A DNA stretch of 64,000 nt from Rhynchopus sp. YZ270_cl-10. Lineage: Eukaryota; Euglenozoa; Diplonemea; Diplonemida; Diplonemidae. The stretch's first letter is position 1; each line of letters opens with the position of its first letter. Below, piece after piece: positions 10,819 to 61,196 of this stretch. The stretch is from positions 806,001 through 870,000 of the forward strand of contig OZ037875.1 of assembly GCA_964035575.1 (NCBI GenBank), in the 5' to 3' direction. The notes under the pieces are model-generated. The model saw nothing but the letters and a program-made list of their open reading frames with translations, had not been told where the DNA came from and searched no databases. Both the position numbers and the translations under genes were made by a program.

Positions 10819-11877
10819 ATGGAAATATGCGTTGTGGGCTTAGATGGTGGGAAGCATATGATCGAGGTGGGTGCGGATGATACAGCTGCGGACATACGGC
10901 AGAAGGTGGGGTCTGCCACAGCGTTGTGTGAAGACGGCTTTGACATGAGCTTTGGAGGGAAGGTGCTGGCCGAAGGTGACTGCATGACGCAACTGAGTGC
11001 TGGGGACACAATCGTGCTGACGAGGGAGATGACCCCAAAGAACCATGCCATTGCAGCGCTTCGTGCGTTGGGAGAGACAGACCTGACGGAGCAGCGGTGG
11101 AAAGGTCTGTCTGATCCCAATCTGGTTCATTTGTTTCTGCAGGCGGAGGTTGTTACCGAGGTCGGCTCTGGATGTCTGTCGCATTGCTCGGTTGAAGAGC
11201 TTGATCTCAGCGCGGTGCCAGTGGTGACCAAAGTGGGCGACACCTTCCTCTCTGGCAGCGGAGTGGCAAAGCTTGATATGTCTGGGTGGGGCAATGTCAG
11301 GCAGATCAACCGCAGCTTCCTCAGCTGCTGCAGGTCGTTGGAAACACTTGATTTGTCTGGGTGGACTAACGTCATGAAAATTGAAAAGGAGTTCCTCGCA
11401 CACTGCAGCGCGTTGACAGCGATTGATTTGTCTGGGTGGGACAACGTCACTCAGGTAGGCCACCGCTTCTTTTACTACTGCGTGCGGTTGACAGAGCTCG
11501 ATCTGTCTGGATGGACCCATGTCACGGAGGTTGGAACGTTCTGCTTCTCCTACTGCTATGCGTTAACTACCCTTGATCTATCTGGGTGGAGCAGGGTCGC
11601 GCAGATTGAGCCCTTTTTCCTCAACAGCTGCACCTCATTGAGAACCCTAAATTTGGCTGGGTGGAGCAGCGTCAAGCGGATCAAGAGCTTCTTCCTCAAC
11701 AACTGCACCGCATTGAAAACCGTAAATTTGTCCGGGTGGAGCAGCGTCACGCACATTGGACAGGGATTTCTCGAAGATTGTGTGATACCAAGAAGTGACA
11801 TTGACGTTACCGGATCGAGCAGTTATTTGGTAAAGTGCGTAAAGGATCACGTGTCGTGCGATTGTGTGTGTATGTGA
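10819..11877 (+). CDS. Ubiquitin-like / leucine-rich repeat protein with CaaX-like tail
   Basis: A 352-residue protein; the chosen start, MEICVVGL, matches the start of the homologous domain in the gene at 3818. Residues 1-75 form a ubiquitin-like domain (DDTAADIRQKV helix, then FGGKVLAEGD and GDTIVLT). Residues about 130-335 carry eight 25-residue leucine-rich repeats of pattern LDLSGWxNVxxIxxxFLxxC. This BspA-like pattern is common in protist surface and scaffold proteins. The C-terminus ends SCDCVCM: a possible CaaX box (CVCM) with an extra Cys two residues before it, like the CKCSVA end of its relative. I infer a membrane-anchored adaptor. The a2 position being Cys makes prenylation less certain here. 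No catalytic motif is visible. Confidence 0.85.
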   Translation: MEICVVGLDGGKHMIEVGADDTAADIRQKVGSATALCEDGFDMSFGGKVLAEGDCMTQLSAGDTIVLTREMTPKNHAIAALRALGETDLTEQRWKGLSDPNLVHLFLQAEVVTEVGSGCLSHCSVEELDLSAVPVVTKVGDTFLSGSGVAKLDMSGWGNVRQINRSFLSCCRSLETLDLSGWTNVMKIEKEFLAHCSALTAIDLSGWDNVTQVGHRFFYYCVRLTELDLSGWTHVTEVGTFCFSYCYALTTLDLSGWSRVAQIEPFFLNSCTSLRTLNLAGWSSVKRIKSFFLNNCTALKTVNLSGWSSVTHIGQGFLEDCVIPRSDIDVTGSSSYLVKCVKDHVSCDCVCM

Positions 11878-52643: not shown

Positions 52644-53825
52644 ATGATAATGCCAATTCTGTTTGTTTCGATAGTTAGTGGATTGGGCGAGGCACCTGCA
52701 TGCAAAGAGATGGAGCAGGACGGACACCTCCGCTTCCCTACCTCCGGAGAGACCTACGAAAACGACGCAAAAGAATGCTGGCGATTCACATGCCCTCAGA
52801 ATGGAAATATCGTTGCCTTCACGATTATCCGCATGGATTTGACTGCCCCCGATTTTCTTGATGTCTTTGAATCCAATTCTTCGACCCCTATCCTCCGTAT
52901 CCGCACCGAAACCGACTCTTTCTCCGCCACCCCTGATGTTACTCTTCAATTCGAATCGGATAGCTCCCTCACCTCCACCGGGTTTGAACTTGACTATCGT
53001 TGTACCGCCGCAACGCCTACCCCCGCCACCTCGGCACCAGAGGATGGATACCGCTACCCTTCGGGCTGCGTGAACTACACTGAGATGCCAGCTTCCCCAG
53101 GGGTGTCTGGGAGTATAACATACAATAACAACGAAGGAGAACAGTGTTGGGCATTGTTCTGCGAGAGAAAGGTGAATATTAGTGTACAACTCGATGGGAG
53201 TCAGGACAGCGAAGCGCTACGACTGTCCTGGAAGAATTCTAAGATGATGTGGGATACCACCCCCATCGTTGAAACGGTGTCTACCTATGCTGCCCCTGTG
53301 GTGTTGAGAACGATCCGGGCAGACCCGTCGTTGCATGCTGACTATTCAATTAAATACGCATGCGTCGATATTGATGATGGCATGGTGGTGATCAACGACA
53401 CATTCCCCGTAGCTGCGATTGTTGTCCCCTGCGCGTTGGCGGTGTTGATTGTGGTTGTCGCTGCGGTGTGGTATTGTACCAAAGGAAAAATTTTTTCGTG
53501 CTGCGCAGCAAAAGAGAAAAAGTATGATGTCGGGGAGCTAGGTGATGATGACGTATCGTTGCCGGAGTTGGAGCCGATTCCAGAAGGTGATGGAAACCCT
53601 GAGCATATGGTCTGTCCACTTACCCGCAAGCTTATTAATGATCCTGTTTCATGTGTGTGCTCCCCACCCCATTCCTTCGAATGTGAAGACCTTCACACCT
53701 TCGTTGCAAAGTTTCACTGCTGCCCGGTAGGGAGAAAACCCCTCTTAGAGTCGAATATCAGCAAAAATTCGCAACTAAAACGCGAAATTTTTGATTATGT
53801 TTGCGCAGCTGATTCGCCACCTTAA
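52644..53825 (+). CDS. Transmembrane U-box protein with CUB-like ectodomain (1)
   Basis: A 393-residue type I membrane protein. Signal peptide at 1-17 (MIMPILFVSIVSGLGEA). Two extracellular modules follow (about 19-125 and 138-250). Each has a first Cys, a CW-x3-C core (ECWRFTC; QCWALFC) and an end of form Y-x-C (LDYRC; IKYAC), which is CUB-like. A transmembrane span lies at about 256-278 (VAAIVVPCALAVLIVVVAAVW). The cytoplasmic part has a Cys-rich juxtamembrane stretch and an acidic linker, then a U-box (about 319-388: PEHMVCPLTRKLINDPVSC.., CCPVGRKPLL). U-boxes are RING-like E3 ubiquitin-ligase domains that recruit E2 enzymes. I infer a receptor-like ligase. The next gene on this strand is a longer paralogue. 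Confidence 0.88.
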   Translation: MIMPILFVSIVSGLGEAPACKEMEQDGHLRFPTSGETYENDAKECWRFTCPQNGNIVAFTIIRMDLTAPDFLDVFESNSSTPILRIRTETDSFSATPDVTLQFESDSSLTSTGFELDYRCTAATPTPATSAPEDGYRYPSGCVNYTEMPASPGVSGSITYNNNEGEQCWALFCERKVNISVQLDGSQDSEALRLSWKNSKMMWDTTPIVETVSTYAAPVVLRTIRADPSLHADYSIKYACVDIDDGMVVINDTFPVAAIVVPCALAVLIVVVAAVWYCTKGKIFSCCAAKEKKYDVGELGDDDVSLPELEPIPEGDGNPEHMVCPLTRKLINDPVSCVCSPPHSFECEDLHTFVAKFHCCPVGRKPLLESNISKNSQLKREIFDYVCAADSPP

Positions 53826-54391
53826 AACAAAAGAGAACCGAAAAGAAAAGGGGAGAAGAGGGGCTTGTGGTGTGTATTCTGGATTTTTCCCCCCAGAATA
53901 TCACAATTTTCTGATAGATTTTGAGGTAAAAAAAATTCTCATAATTGCACACAGCTCTTGTTAAGGGGGTAAGGGGTTTGGGTGGTGGTGACTGTATTGT
54001 GATAGTTTCTCATCATAATATATAATGCGCTTCATAATACTGTGCTGTTTGCGCATGGCATATAAAAAATACAAAAAAAATGCGTATAACCCAATTTTGC
54101 GCATGATGCGAATGGTGCGCATTCTAGCTATGCATACAGCTGGTATTGTGAAATGTGTTGATGTATTATGATGAGAAATTATCACAGTACAGCTATCAGT
54201 CGGTATGGGGCATACCCCACAACGTATTTGTGGGTGTTGATTAATGGGTAAAGGTTTGATGCGTAAGAAAAAGAAGAGAAAAACGTCTTTTTTTTTTCCT
54301 TTGCGAATGTGAGAATTTTTTTTTTTTTTGTTAGTTTTTTTTGACCAAGCAAGAGTTTATCTTATTTTTTTGTTTCATTACCCTGTGTTCG

Positions 54392-54575
54392 CAATGATCC
54401 TCCGTTCATCTGGCTGATGAGTGGAAGCGGGAGTAGACACATATCAGATGGTAAACCACGAAATGGATTGTAGGACTGCATGGTTTGGGGGTTCACTCCC
54501 CCCCCCGGTACAGCCGGTCATTGTACCAAAAGGTACACTGTTCATGAGAGAGCTTTTGTATATCAAGTCAACTCT
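54392..54575 (+). repeat. R2, long copy A
   Basis: Starts AATGATCCTCCGTTCATCTG and runs through GATGAGTGGAAGCGGGAG, GTAAACCACGAAATGG, a GGGGG/CCCCC hairpin and TTGTACCAAAAGGTACAC to GAGAGAGCTTTTGTATATC. It defines the full length of R2, about 180 bp. Confidence 0.9.
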
Positions 54576-54699
54576 ATGTTTTGTTTTGTTCCCCTTCTCC
54601 ACACGCCACCCCCTAGCCTTTGAGTACACCAGCCAAAGAGAGGCTAGAAGGAGGAGGGAGGGAGGCAAGAAGAGAGAGATGTCGGCATTTTTTTCTTCT

Positions 54700-54915
54700 T
54701 CTGTGTGCACGAGAAGTACGTTTTGTCAATTACTCTTTTATTTGCACTGTGTCTTATGCTAAAAAACAGAGTTGCGCATACCCCCTTTTTTATCTACCTA
54801 CAAACCCCCGAGGGAACCTGTAATCATATTGAAGTGCTCTCCGGGGGTTCGATAACTGGAGAAGTATCTGCCGTCCGATGTACTATGGGCTATGAGGTGG
54901 TTGCACTTTTCAACC
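54700..54915 (+). repeat. R1b plus R5 composite
   Basis: TGTGTGCACGAGAAGTACG, then GAAGTGCTCTCCGGGGGTTC, GCCGTCCGATG and GTTGCACTTTTCAACC. Confidence 0.65.
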
Positions 54916-54920
54916 TTTTT

Positions 54921-55090
54921 GTAATGATCCCCGTTCATCTGGCTGATGAGTGGAAGCGGGAGTAGACACATATCAGATGGTAAACCACGAAAAAATTGTA
55001 GGACTGCATGGTTTGGGTGTCCACCCCACAGTACAGCCGGTCATACCAAGGTACACTGTTCATGAGAGGGCTTTTGTATTTCAACTCTAC
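54921..55090 (+). repeat. R2, long copy B
   Basis: Nearly identical to copy A over its whole length; the two copies are about 530 bp apart in the same orientation. Ends about 45 bp before the acceptor of the second U-box gene. Confidence 0.9.
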
Positions 55091-55091
55091 T

Positions 55092-55140
55092 TTCTTCCCT
55101 TTTTTTCCTACTAAACAACCCCATTTTTTTCCAATCGCAG
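55092..55140 (+). promoter_or_regulatory. Pyrimidine tract and AG acceptor before U-box gene 2
   Basis: T/C-rich stretch ending CCAATCGCAG, 13 bases ahead of the ATG. No matching upstream coding exon is visible. Confidence 0.5.
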
Positions 55141-55153
55141 ATTTCCCAACAAA

Positions 55154-57010
55154 ATGTACCGCAGTGTGTTGTTGTGTGCTGCATTGTGGGGTTTGGTTGA
55201 TGGTGATGTGGTTGACCCTATGTCAATTCCTTTTCCTGATGTGTGCGAAGGGAAACGTGTTGATGTGACAAGCCTGACAGACCTCCGACGCGACCGTGCT
55301 GTCTGGGGGACCGAACAGATTTGCTGGCGTCTGAACTGCGACGGCACTGCTGTGGTGGACCCACGCAACTTCCCCACCTTCTACCGCTACAGCGATCTGC
55401 GGGTCTTCACCCAAGACGACAATGGAACCACAACCGAGTTGGTCCGAGGACCTAACCGTGCCGTCATCCGCTCCACCTCACGCATGACCATAATGTTTGC
55501 ACCAAAGCTCACCGAAGCAATCATCGCCTTTCGTCTCCTATACACCTGCGAGGGGGCTAGAGTGATAGACCCTCTCCCCGTCTACGTTCCCCCTCCGCCA
55601 CATCAAAACTGCGCCGCAATCAGCCCTGGAGAGGAGTACGCTACCCCAGGGCTTGCGGAATGGCAGTGCTTTTCTGTGCAATGTGGTGGGTTGGATGCGG
55701 TGTTAAGGCTGTACGATGTGTCATTGAATGATGGTGAAACCATTGATGTATATGAGCACGGCAGACGCAAGGCAGAAGTAGAGCACTCCCAATACGAACG
55801 GATGTTAAACCGTCTCAAGCACTACACCTATGTTCTGAAGGGGGACCGCTCGTCGCTCTCCTTCAATACACTGCATCTGGCAAGGGGGAGGGGGTTCCGT
55901 TTTCAATATCAATGCGAGGTGGAGAAGAATGTGAATGCAACCGTAGCATCCTTGGATGACTCGAAGTACTACCCGACAAGCTGTTTTTTTGCAAAAAGGC
56001 TGCGGCCCCCCGAGGCCCCAGGGGGGTTGAATTTCTCAGCGGATCTCTCCTTTTTGCATCACAACTGCTGGAGGATTGACTGCGCTGCAGGGGAGTACGT
56101 TGTTCTCCATTTTCACAATTTTACACAAAACGTTAAACAATCCGAAACCGATTTTTACTATAGTCTGCGGGCTTTCAACCACTATGCTGGACACACCCGG
56201 TTTTGGAATACAACTCAAATTCAATCAGAACAGCCAGAGTTTGTTCGCTACTATACTACACCCTTTGTGTTGAAGTCCGCAAGGCAAGGTTTCACCCTGG
56301 AGTATTCTTGCCAAGAACGTGGACCCGACCCTGAAGGGAGTGCGTCTCTGGGGGCGCTGCCGTTGGGGTTTTCCATTGCGTTGCCGTTGTTGGGTGTGGT
56401 GTGCTGTTTTGCGGTGTTGTGCTGCTGTTGCTGGAAAGGGCAACGCCAGGCTACACAACGCCCCCACCGCAACGCACCCGACTACCACCCCACCCCTGCC
56501 ATCGAACTCTCCAGCCTCGAAGTAGGATTCGGCCCGGTCACCTTCCCCGAACCCTCCCACATGATGTGCCCAATCTCCCTACAACTCATGAAAGACCCAG
56601 TCTGGTGTGGATGCGAACAGTCAACTGGAGAGGGGCACGTCTTTGAACGTGCCTGCTTAGAAGCGCATATATCAAGAACAGCGTCATGTCCATTGTCACG
56701 TGCTCCGATTGATAAGATGTGTCTACGTGAACATGAGGTGCTTCGTAAAGAGATTGCAGAATACGTTGCGGAACAACGTGCCATTTTGGAGAGAAAACAT
56801 AGCCTAGAAATGAGCACGTCAAATGAAACGGAAGAAGGGCCCCTCGAAACCAGCTCCGGTGCAGACAGTATGGCTAAGCTGAATGGCAAAGCAAAGTTCC
56901 ACGACAACTGCGACGACGCCTTCCCGGAAGAGACAACCACAGCAGAAGGGGACGACAGTGCTGGAGACATGGAAGGCTGCAGCCACGACTCGGCGGAGGA
57001 AATTGTCTAA
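55154..57010 (+). CDS. Transmembrane U-box protein with CUB-like ectodomain (2)
   Basis: A 618-residue type I membrane protein. Signal peptide at 1-18 (MYRSVLLCAALWGLVDGD). Three CUB-like modules follow (about 28-137, 150-257 and 272-393), with cores CWRLNC, CFSVQC and CWRIDC and ends LLYTC, FQYQC and LEYSC. A hydrophobic span lies at about 400-424, ending in a Cys cluster that could be palmitoylated. The cytoplasmic U-box (about 466-530) reads PSHMMCPISLQLMKDPVWC, then SCPLSRAPI and LRKEIAEYV, close to the canonical motif. The tail is acidic and Ser/Thr-rich. Same plan as the 393-residue neighbour with one extra module, so the pair probably arose by tandem duplication. Ligand and E2 are unknown. 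Confidence 0.9.
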   Translation: MYRSVLLCAALWGLVDGDVVDPMSIPFPDVCEGKRVDVTSLTDLRRDRAVWGTEQICWRLNCDGTAVVDPRNFPTFYRYSDLRVFTQDDNGTTTELVRGPNRAVIRSTSRMTIMFAPKLTEAIIAFRLLYTCEGARVIDPLPVYVPPPPHQNCAAISPGEEYATPGLAEWQCFSVQCGGLDAVLRLYDVSLNDGETIDVYEHGRRKAEVEHSQYERMLNRLKHYTYVLKGDRSSLSFNTLHLARGRGFRFQYQCEVEKNVNATVASLDDSKYYPTSCFFAKRLRPPEAPGGLNFSADLSFLHHNCWRIDCAAGEYVVLHFHNFTQNVKQSETDFYYSLRAFNHYAGHTRFWNTTQIQSEQPEFVRYYTTPFVLKSARQGFTLEYSCQERGPDPEGSASLGALPLGFSIALPLLGVVCCFAVLCCCCWKGQRQATQRPHRNAPDYHPTPAIELSSLEVGFGPVTFPEPSHMMCPISLQLMKDPVWCGCEQSTGEGHVFERACLEAHISRTASCPLSRAPIDKMCLREHEVLRKEIAEYVAEQRAILERKHSLEMSTSNETEEGPLETSSGADSMAKLNGKAKFHDNCDDAFPEETTTAEGDDSAGDMEGCSHDSAEEIV

Positions 57011-59735: not shown

Positions 59736-61196
59736 ATGATGCGGGTAGTAAGCTTGCTTGGGTTGTGCGGTGTTGCGGTGTCTCAGACCTGCCAGATTGC
59801 GACCGGAGGGGTGTGGGATCATAGCTCACTGCAGTGCAGTGCAGAGAACGCGGGGTTGGAAGGGATCTGCGCTAAAGCATGCTGCCCAGACCCGAACAAC
59901 ATTCTGCTCAACTGCGAAGGCAAGAACAACGGGTTTTGCATGCAGGACCTCTGCCCGCACTGCGGCGGCTGCGAATGGCGCTGCCAGAACGCTGTTGATG
60001 CGAATCTCTTTGGCAGCTGCAGTGGGGGACGTCTCCTTGCAGGGAACAACCTTTGCGCGGACGGAATCTGCACAGAAGCGATGTGCTGCATCGACCAAAC
60101 CCCGGTACCTCCAACGGACGCCCCCCCTACCGATCCTCCAGCAACCCCTGCTCCGCCTACAGCAGAGCCCACTGCAGAACCGACTGTTGCACCGGCCACT
60201 CCATCGCCTGACACAGAGGCGCCACCGACAGACGCTCCCCCAACTAATTCACCAGAAACGAACGCACCAGAGACGGCAGCGCCACCTACCCCTTCACCCA
60301 CTGCAGCACCACCGACAGCAGCTCCGCCTACAGAAGCCCCCCCGACACTTCCCCCACCTACCCCGGCCCCGCCTACAGCTGAGCCAACGGAGGAGCCCAC
60401 AGCAGCACCCCCAACTCAGCCCCCTCCAACGAACGCTCCGTCTCGTCCAGGGCAAGGGGTGTGTGGTGATGGGTATAATCCGGCAATAATGAAGTTTCAT
60501 GCCTCGGTGCGGTATTATTCCTGCAATGATACCTTAACGGAGGGGGTTTGTACAGTGCCGGTCGAAGATGCGGCGAGGCGGTGTTATGAACTGTCTAGCT
60601 GCTGTTTCATTGTGCATCAAGATGGGGCAGCGACTGCGCAGCTTGGTGGCTGTGGAAAGCCGGGGTGGTATGAAAACAACACCGATATCACTTATGGGAC
60701 CTGCGAGAAGACGCCTGGGTTGGATCGGGAGTGTCGTGAAGGATATACCCGGGAGACAGCCTCGTTTGGAGAGGCCACGCCGTGCGATGCATCCACTGCG
60801 GAGTATCAATGCCAGATGCCGCTCGACGCTGCGTATGGGAACTGCTCTGCGAACGGACGGTGCTGTGGATTGGCTTGGGTGCCGGGTGTGCCGCGGTCTC
60901 AGGCGTGGTTGCTCTTCTGCGATAGCAGTAGCAGCAGCTCAACCCCCAACGTGACAGCAGCACCCCCCACCGAACAGTACCTCTGCAGCAAAGACAGCGA
61001 CGACGCCTTCTGGTGGTGGAGCTGGCGCACCTGGTGGCTGTACGTTGCATTCGCAGTGCTCCTCCTCGCGGCATATGGTCTTTACCGCTATCAAATGAAA
61101 CGCACCGCTACACGCAAGCTAGGCGTCACTACCGCAGAAGACCTTGCCTTCATGATGACCGAACCTACCGACAAAACGTACGAACGGTATTCATAG
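59736..61196 (+). CDS. Type I membrane protein with mucin-like Pro/Thr stalk
   Basis: A 486-residue secretory protein starting MMRVVSLLG, 49 bases after a TTTGCAG acceptor. Signal peptide at 1-17, cleaved near VSQ/TC. A first Cys-rich domain (about 18-118) has CAKACCPDP and CPHCGGCEWRC. A stalk of about 115 residues follows (about 123-238), made of PPT/APPTEAP/PTDAPPT repeats and likely O-glycosylated. A second Cys-rich domain (about 245-405) contains two related halves (YYSCNDTLTEGVC; EYQCQMPLDAAYGNC). One transmembrane span is at about 431-452, followed by a short cytoplasmic tail ending TYERYS. No enzymatic motif is seen. A surface adhesion or coat protein is a fair guess. It follows the two U-box receptors on the same strand. 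Confidence 0.85.
   Translation: MMRVVSLLGLCGVAVSQTCQIATGGVWDHSSLQCSAENAGLEGICAKACCPDPNNILLNCEGKNNGFCMQDLCPHCGGCEWRCQNAVDANLFGSCSGGRLLAGNNLCADGICTEAMCCIDQTPVPPTDAPPTDPPATPAPPTAEPTAEPTVAPATPSPDTEAPPTDAPPTNSPETNAPETAAPPTPSPTAAPPTAAPPTEAPPTLPPPTPAPPTAEPTEEPTAAPPTQPPPTNAPSRPGQGVCGDGYNPAIMKFHASVRYYSCNDTLTEGVCTVPVEDAARRCYELSSCCFIVHQDGAATAQLGGCGKPGWYENNTDITYGTCEKTPGLDRECREGYTRETASFGEATPCDASTAEYQCQMPLDAAYGNCSANGRCCGLAWVPGVPRSQAWLLFCDSSSSSSTPNVTAAPPTEQYLCSKDSDDAFWWWSWRTWWLYVAFAVLLLAAYGLYRYQMKRTATRKLGVTTAEDLAFMMTEPTDKTYERYS

Follow-up and report, generated by a model that had tools for sequence, protein, structure and literature searches.

The window analysed here, a 64,000-nucleotide stretch of the genome of the diplonemid Rhynchopus sp. 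YZ270_cl-10 (assembly GCA_964035575.1, contig OZ037875.1, positions 806,001 to 870,000), contains two neighbouring genes that we refer to as gene A (52644-53825, 393 amino acids, aa) and gene B (55154-57010, 618 aa). Both are located on the + strand, as are all of their features described below, and each encodes CUB-like modules, one hydrophobic span and a U-box within a single open frame. U-boxes are usually found on cytosolic proteins, and the original prediction of two neighbouring membrane U-box genes, with CUB-like modules followed by a single span and a U-box, is borne out by Pfam, hydropathy, a structure model of A and a CUB-like profile built from this genome. Both frames are unbroken from ATG to stop, with in-frame stops 6 codons (A) and 13 codons (B) 5' of the ATG. 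In gene B a pyrimidine-rich stretch and an AG, ending 13 bases 5' of the ATG, are arranged as for a splice acceptor.

Gene A begins with a putative signal peptide (residues 1-16; 52644-52691), which by inspection of the sequence is weak and has no positive n-region. It is followed by two CUB-like modules (residues 20-120, 52701-53003; residues 142-240, 53067-53363), a transmembrane span (residues 256-274; 53409-53465) with a mean hydropathy of 3.04 that is helical in the structure model over residues 251-279, and a C-terminal U-box (residues 319-387; 53598-53804). The U-box scores 28.6 bits against PF04564 (cut-off 21.4) and its modelled fold matches CHIP, E4B and Ufd2; its sequence matches to solved U-box chains are weak (best E 0.018). 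One structure model of A thus holds two CUB folds and a U-box fold. Its top fold matches are Neto2, neuropilin, Kremen and other CUB membrane proteins, all confined to the outer modules, and among the 50 VIA matches listed, 15 fall on the U-box, of which 14 are ubiquitin U-box chains and one is the TRIM21 RING.

Gene B has a good putative signal peptide as judged by sequence inspection (residues 1-17; 55154-55204), three CUB-like modules (residues 31-133, 55244-55552; residues 153-254, 55610-55915; residues 277-386, 55982-56311), a transmembrane span with a cysteine run at its end (residues 408-426; 56375-56431; mean hydropathy 2.72, helix 403-424 in the model), a U-box (residues 467-542; 56552-56779) and an acidic tail. 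The U-box matches PF04564 at 41.7 bits, and phmmer relates it to solved U-box chains with a best E of 1e-05. For both proteins the hydropathy and the inside-positive charge fit the predicted topology of a type I membrane receptor.

The five outer modules share a simple cysteine plan, with C1 and C2 separated by a spacing of 19-28, C3 five residues after C2, and C4 at the module end (20/45/50/120 and 142/168/173/240 in A; 31/57/62/132, 153/172/177/254 and 277/305/310/386 in B). The original prediction described each module by a cysteine followed by CW-x3-C, and the four cysteines are indeed present in all five, although module 2 of B reads CF-x3-C. In the usual CUB domain the cysteines pair as C1-C2 and C3-C4, and their placement in A and B is unlike the usual C3-C4 pair. 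Assignment of the modules to CUB stands in part: PF00431 reaches 18.3 bits with module 1 of A, below its cut-off of 21.4, and B is not listed, but the profile made from CUB-like arrays of the same genome matches both proteins, at 52.2 bits over two stretches in A and 47.9 bits over three stretches in B. Control sequences score at best 7.8 bits when shuffled (n=340) and 1.7 bits when reversed (n=17). The same profile recovers two other proteins of this genome that are positive for Pfam CUB, L054 (32.3 bits) and L055 (34.7 bits), and homologous modules elsewhere in the genome, such as those at C49:670827, C76:128046 and C16:769462, exceed the PF00431 cut-off. Taken singly, module 1 of A scores 34.5 bits and matches the Kremen and Neto2 CUB folds; each of the others reaches just 13.5 to 15.4 bits, in some cases over an incomplete stretch of the module. 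Thus module 1 of B scores 15.4 bits over residues 54-98, where the model is of low confidence, and module 2 of B scores 13.5 bits, with a beta-sandwich match that includes CUB among other jelly-rolls. The predicted CUB fold is seen in modules 1 and 2 of A, but in the outer modules of B the fold match is weaker and mixed with other jelly-rolls.

A PF04564 scan of the 152-Mb assembly locates 32 U-box places, and in 15 frames a hydrophobic span precedes the U-box (A, B, L008, L009a, L009b, L012, L016, L017, L019, L020, L021, L022, L023, L024 and L026). The remaining 17 frames include L018, in which a span follows the U-box, and L004, whose frame is cut by the locus end. PF04564 is over its cut-off in A, B and all 12 further paralogs scanned, a set that excludes L017. 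L016 and L017 each have four hydrophobic segments before the U-box and share 99.6% identity over 4.6 kb, the two copies lying on different contigs and in opposite orientation, so they may be one gene seen twice, in which case the membrane set would be 14. Net positive charge is found just inside the span in 11 of the 15 frames, and the outer parts before the span are very short in L022 (6 aa) and L026 (8 aa). The genome does appear to contain introns, as its paraflagellar-rod genes (30 matches to PF05149, at up to 301.9 bits, and none in 14 control genomes) match in two pieces with a gap; such a rod is a feature common to Euglenozoa (PMC7052976), the group to which these genes point, and introns would be more in keeping with a diplonemid or euglenid than with a kinetoplastid. 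Because frames were read without introns, further members may be missed and the outer parts of L022 and L026 may be incomplete. One of the other U-boxes, in L015 (G000 C18:324431-324550), lies near the C-terminal end of a frame in which kinesin-like motifs can be seen by eye.

The pair had been expected to belong to a small family expanding by duplication. Module number does vary, but the family is larger than supposed, and A and B did not arise by recent tandem duplication, as there is no blastn match between them at E 1e-5 and they have different neighbours in the U-box tree. In that tree B lies beside L009a (83/78) and A beside L022 (92/85), neither branch being starred, and A is divergent with an end branch of 2.21. 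Labelling the tips as membrane or not requires 2 changes, compared with a shuffled mean of 10.8. A single clade for the membrane U-boxes is found (1 label change) in just 4% of 200 bootstrap trees and is not rejected by the AU test (p-AU 0.336); a RING-like group made up of L010, L011, L013 and L014 nests inside them. The genome may encode a whole family of possible receptor-ligases beyond the pair.

The membrane U-boxes share residues of two kinds. Those expected at the E2 contact include an I or L in loop 1 and a CP in loop 2, both present in 15 of 15, and a basic residue at the presumed position of the linchpin (13/15; R in 12 and K in one), a mapping that is our own; the linchpin residue is described in PMC12919000. 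A and B have CPL or CPI in loop 1, CP in loop 2 and R at this position, and the two members without a basic residue are L012 and L022. The others are Cys337, His343, Cys360 and Pro361 (numbered as in A), which are present in all 15, and Cys339, which completes a C-x-C in 13. The full C-x-C...H...CP pattern occurs in none of the 17 other U-box frames, although L004 has the C-x-C and the H without the CP; the shorter C...H...CP was found by script in four of the 17, and by eye also in L014, all of them RING-like. Conservation of C337, H343 and C360 together with C339 suggests that these residues could bind zinc. Where a RING would have its eighth ligand, 14 of the membrane U-boxes have Ser and A has Gly. 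Among 14 members scanned with zf-Nse (PF11789, SP-RING/MIZ type, cut-off 27), L019 (28.3 bits), L021 (28.1) and L022 (30.6) are over the cut-off and 11 are below, including A (13.8) and B (21.3); PF04564 gives the higher score in all 14. With zf-RING_UBOX, B scores 21.8 bits (cut-off 25.2) and A is not listed. These patterns raise the possibility of a one-zinc site intermediate between U-box and SP-RING in the membrane set. Five span-less frames (two in L010 and one each in L011, L013 and L014) have a RING-like domain with Asp as the eighth zinc ligand (CPID/CPMD), and four of these also appear by eye to have repeated zinc-finger-like motifs.

The outer parts of the 15 membrane U-box frames differ in spite of their common U-box signature. 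L009a scores well with the array profile, with a third stretch at noise (-0.9 bits), and L017, the near-copy of L016, scores at noise (1.2 bits). A second profile, in which the modules of A, B and L009a were also included, was used to score 11 other members against 100 shuffles each. Matches in L012 (7.8 bits) and L020 (7.3 bits) are marginal, no shuffle scoring as high, and those in L009b, L008, L021 and L016 are weak (4.3, 3.2, 2.2 and 3.1 bits, with 1, 1, 4 and 3 of 100 shuffles as high); with this profile there is no CUB signal in L019, L022, L023, L024 or L026, where 11 to 63 of 100 shuffles score as high. CUB is therefore not a rule for the whole set, as its modules are clear in just three members (A, B and L009a), marginal in two (L012 and L020) and weak or not seen in the other ten.

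Two loci illustrate the exchange of outer parts. L009a and L009b are neighbours on C48 with an 85% DNA match over 173 positions of the U-box region, and no match outside it at E 1e-5. Downstream of L012 on the same contig is a chimeric gene (L055:575-1393; G000 C62:1101974-1102792) whose signal peptide and CUB share 88.8% DNA identity with L054 over 445 positions, and whose span and inner tail match L012 at 85% identity over 242 bases. It is without nearly all of the U-box-coding stretch of L012, and similarity resumes beyond this (88% over 113 bases); the chimera may serve as a decoy or may be a gene in decay. L054 itself (L054:694-2001) encodes a putative signal peptide and a CUB (PF00431, 39.5 bits) fused to a tyrosinase (PF00264, 125 bits). 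Because L038, L049 and L050 also carry CUB-like modules, arranged in long arrays and combined with a span and a short tail, the U-box appears to be one of several ends that such proteins can have in this genome.

Elsewhere in the window there are 20 listed frames of at least 200 aa (one of them listed twice), with 14 on the + strand and six on the - strand that all overlap + frames, which gives the window the look of a gene cluster that runs in one direction. Neither an Rfam scan nor a tRNA scan of the window gave a match. The spacer between genes A and B contains direct repeats (54402-54573 and 54931-55091) with 62 identical bases followed by 33 and 44 bases at 91%. The next long frame downstream (59736-61196) appears by eye to encode another membrane protein, whose outer part is rich in Cys and which has linkers rich in threonine and proline and a short tail inside; this frame has no Pfam match at E 0.001. 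A leucine-rich-repeat protein at 10819-11877 has a ubiquitin-like N-terminus at 25.0 bits, just below the Pfam cut-off of 25.4.

CUB-like modules, a hydrophobic span and a U-box are encoded in one frame in each of A and B, and we infer the ligase chemistry, the topology, the ligand and the substrate. We favour the interpretation, with a probability of about 0.6, that A and B function as E3 ubiquitin ligases anchored by a single membrane pass, with the partner selected by the outer modules. The signal peptide would send the CUB-like modules outside the cell or into the endosomal lumen, leaving the U-box in the cytosol. The modules could then bind a soluble ligand or another membrane protein, and this binding, or clustering, would bring U-boxes together. 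Each U-box is predicted to hold E2-ubiquitin via the loop-1 I or L and the loop-2 proline with the basic residue that follows, and ubiquitin would be passed to the tail of the bound or a neighbouring membrane protein, or to the ligase itself, leading to endocytosis and degradation. A changed outer part would mean a changed target. Such proteins would couple extracellular binding directly to ubiquitin transfer.

Several other explanations would account for parts of the same evidence. A and B could be ligases that work constitutively in sorting or quality control at the endosome or Golgi, similar to the PA-TM-RING proteins and the plant RMR proteins, with outer modules that recognise luminal cargo and without an extracellular signal. 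We regard this as unlikely but worth serious attention. In its favour, RING ligases that span the membrane and have a luminal or extracellular domain are known (PMC4021871), and the near absence of an outer part in L022 and L026 suits a membrane-anchored enzyme better than a receptor. However, A, B and L009a retain two or three CUB-like modules of the type used in the genome's long arrays and with a tyrosinase, and in animals most CUB proteins work extracellularly. That the outer part and the U-box are on different transcripts and joined only in the genomic frame is conceivable in a genome with apparent introns, but is very improbable given unbroken frames of 393 and 618 codons and the same order of span and U-box in 13 further frames on other contigs.

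The nature of the inner domain allows two more alternatives, both of which we consider improbable. It could be an SP-RING-like domain with one zinc and a possible SUMO rather than ubiquitin ligase, as the invariant Cys337, His343 and Cys360, the common Cys339 and the three zf-Nse matches over cut-off would suggest; but the better PF04564 scores throughout, the Ser or Gly in place of the eighth RING ligand, and the ubiquitin U-box chains that make up all except the TRIM21 RING among the U-box matches listed for A, argue against it. Alternatively, the U-box could be a non-catalytic binding domain, for ubiquitin or E2 for example, in a scaffold protein. A ubiquitin-binding U-box-like domain has been reported for IFT172 (PMC13290226), A is divergent, and L012 and L022 are without the basic linchpin, yet every member of the set retains the hydrophobic residue of loop 1 and the CP of loop 2, and B has loop 1, loop 2 and the basic residue. 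A broader and more speculative proposal can be made, which we put forward only tentatively: that this euglenozoan has lineage-specific receptor U-box ligases, with a constant span and one-zinc hybrid U-box tail and shuffled outer modules (CUB, Cys-rich and others), that replace receptor kinases, and that U-box-less chimeras such as L055 are natural decoys.

Relatives were sought among 7997, 7995 and 159 scored protein candidates, the first two sets being those sharing most words. The matches are to A, B and four proteins corresponding to L008 and L009a (from later starts), L009b and L023, together with one JGI protein (P0007, E 1.8e-4) that has a U-box and, by eye, no hydrophobic stretch. No relative of the A and B architecture outside this genome is present among the candidates scored, which included no eukaryote protein set. 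No transmembrane, membrane-bound or receptor-like U-box protein was found in those parts of the open-access literature that were searched, and the words U-box, ubiquitin and receptor each occur 0 times in the main text of the paper on the Diplonema papillatum genome (PMC10161547). Transmembrane E3 ligases are a kind already known, in RING types, and a transmembrane U-box family is without printed precedent in the open-access literature searched.

CHIP, E4B/Ufd2 and the plant PUBs share the U-box fold and sequence match with A and B but are not known to have a membrane span or outer part, and the C-x-C...H pattern is absent from the three solved U-boxes aligned with B. Neto2, neuropilin and Kremen have CUB modules, as in the outer part of A, and then a membrane span, but are not known to have a U-box inside; their matches to A lie in the outer modules only. 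In the PA-TM-RING proteins the E2-recruiting domain is on the cytosolic side. ZNRF3 and RNF43 are single-pass proteins with a different outer domain from A and B and with a RING, not a U-box, and MEGF8 also carries CUB domains. ZNRF3/RNF43, the PA-TM-RING proteins and the two-protein MEGF8-MGRN1 complex are the nearest working parallels to the mechanism proposed for A and B.

The PA-TM-RING proteins (GRAIL/RNF128, RNF13, RNF167, ZNRF4 and plant RMR) have the same order of signal peptide, outer or luminal domain, span and E2-recruiting domain (PMC4021871), but with PA outside and RING-H2 inside, where the A and B family combines a U-box with outer parts that are CUB-like or of other kinds. A and B fall outside that group and the other parallel families, as no PA domain is present in the Pfam lists and zf-RING_UBOX is under its cut-off. 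Wnt receptors are the targets of the transmembrane E3 ligases ZNRF3 and RNF43, which an outside ligand inhibits (PMC3905715). MEGF8-MGRN1 divides the outer part and the RING ligase between two proteins (PMC8391454), whereas A and B combine an outer part with a U-box in one polypeptide. SP-RING, which keeps one, distal, zinc site, and the UBR4 hemiRING, which keeps the proximal one, are RING/U-box hybrids (PMC10873205); in the membrane U-boxes zinc is only suspected from the conserved Cys/His pattern, which makes them a testable example of a domain that could lie between U-box, SP-RING and RING. If our interpretation of A and B is correct, they would represent a one-protein link between outside binding and ubiquitin transfer in organisms distant from both animals and plants, and would also suggest that transmembrane ligases of the ZNRF3/GRAIL type have arisen more than once, from different E2-binding folds.

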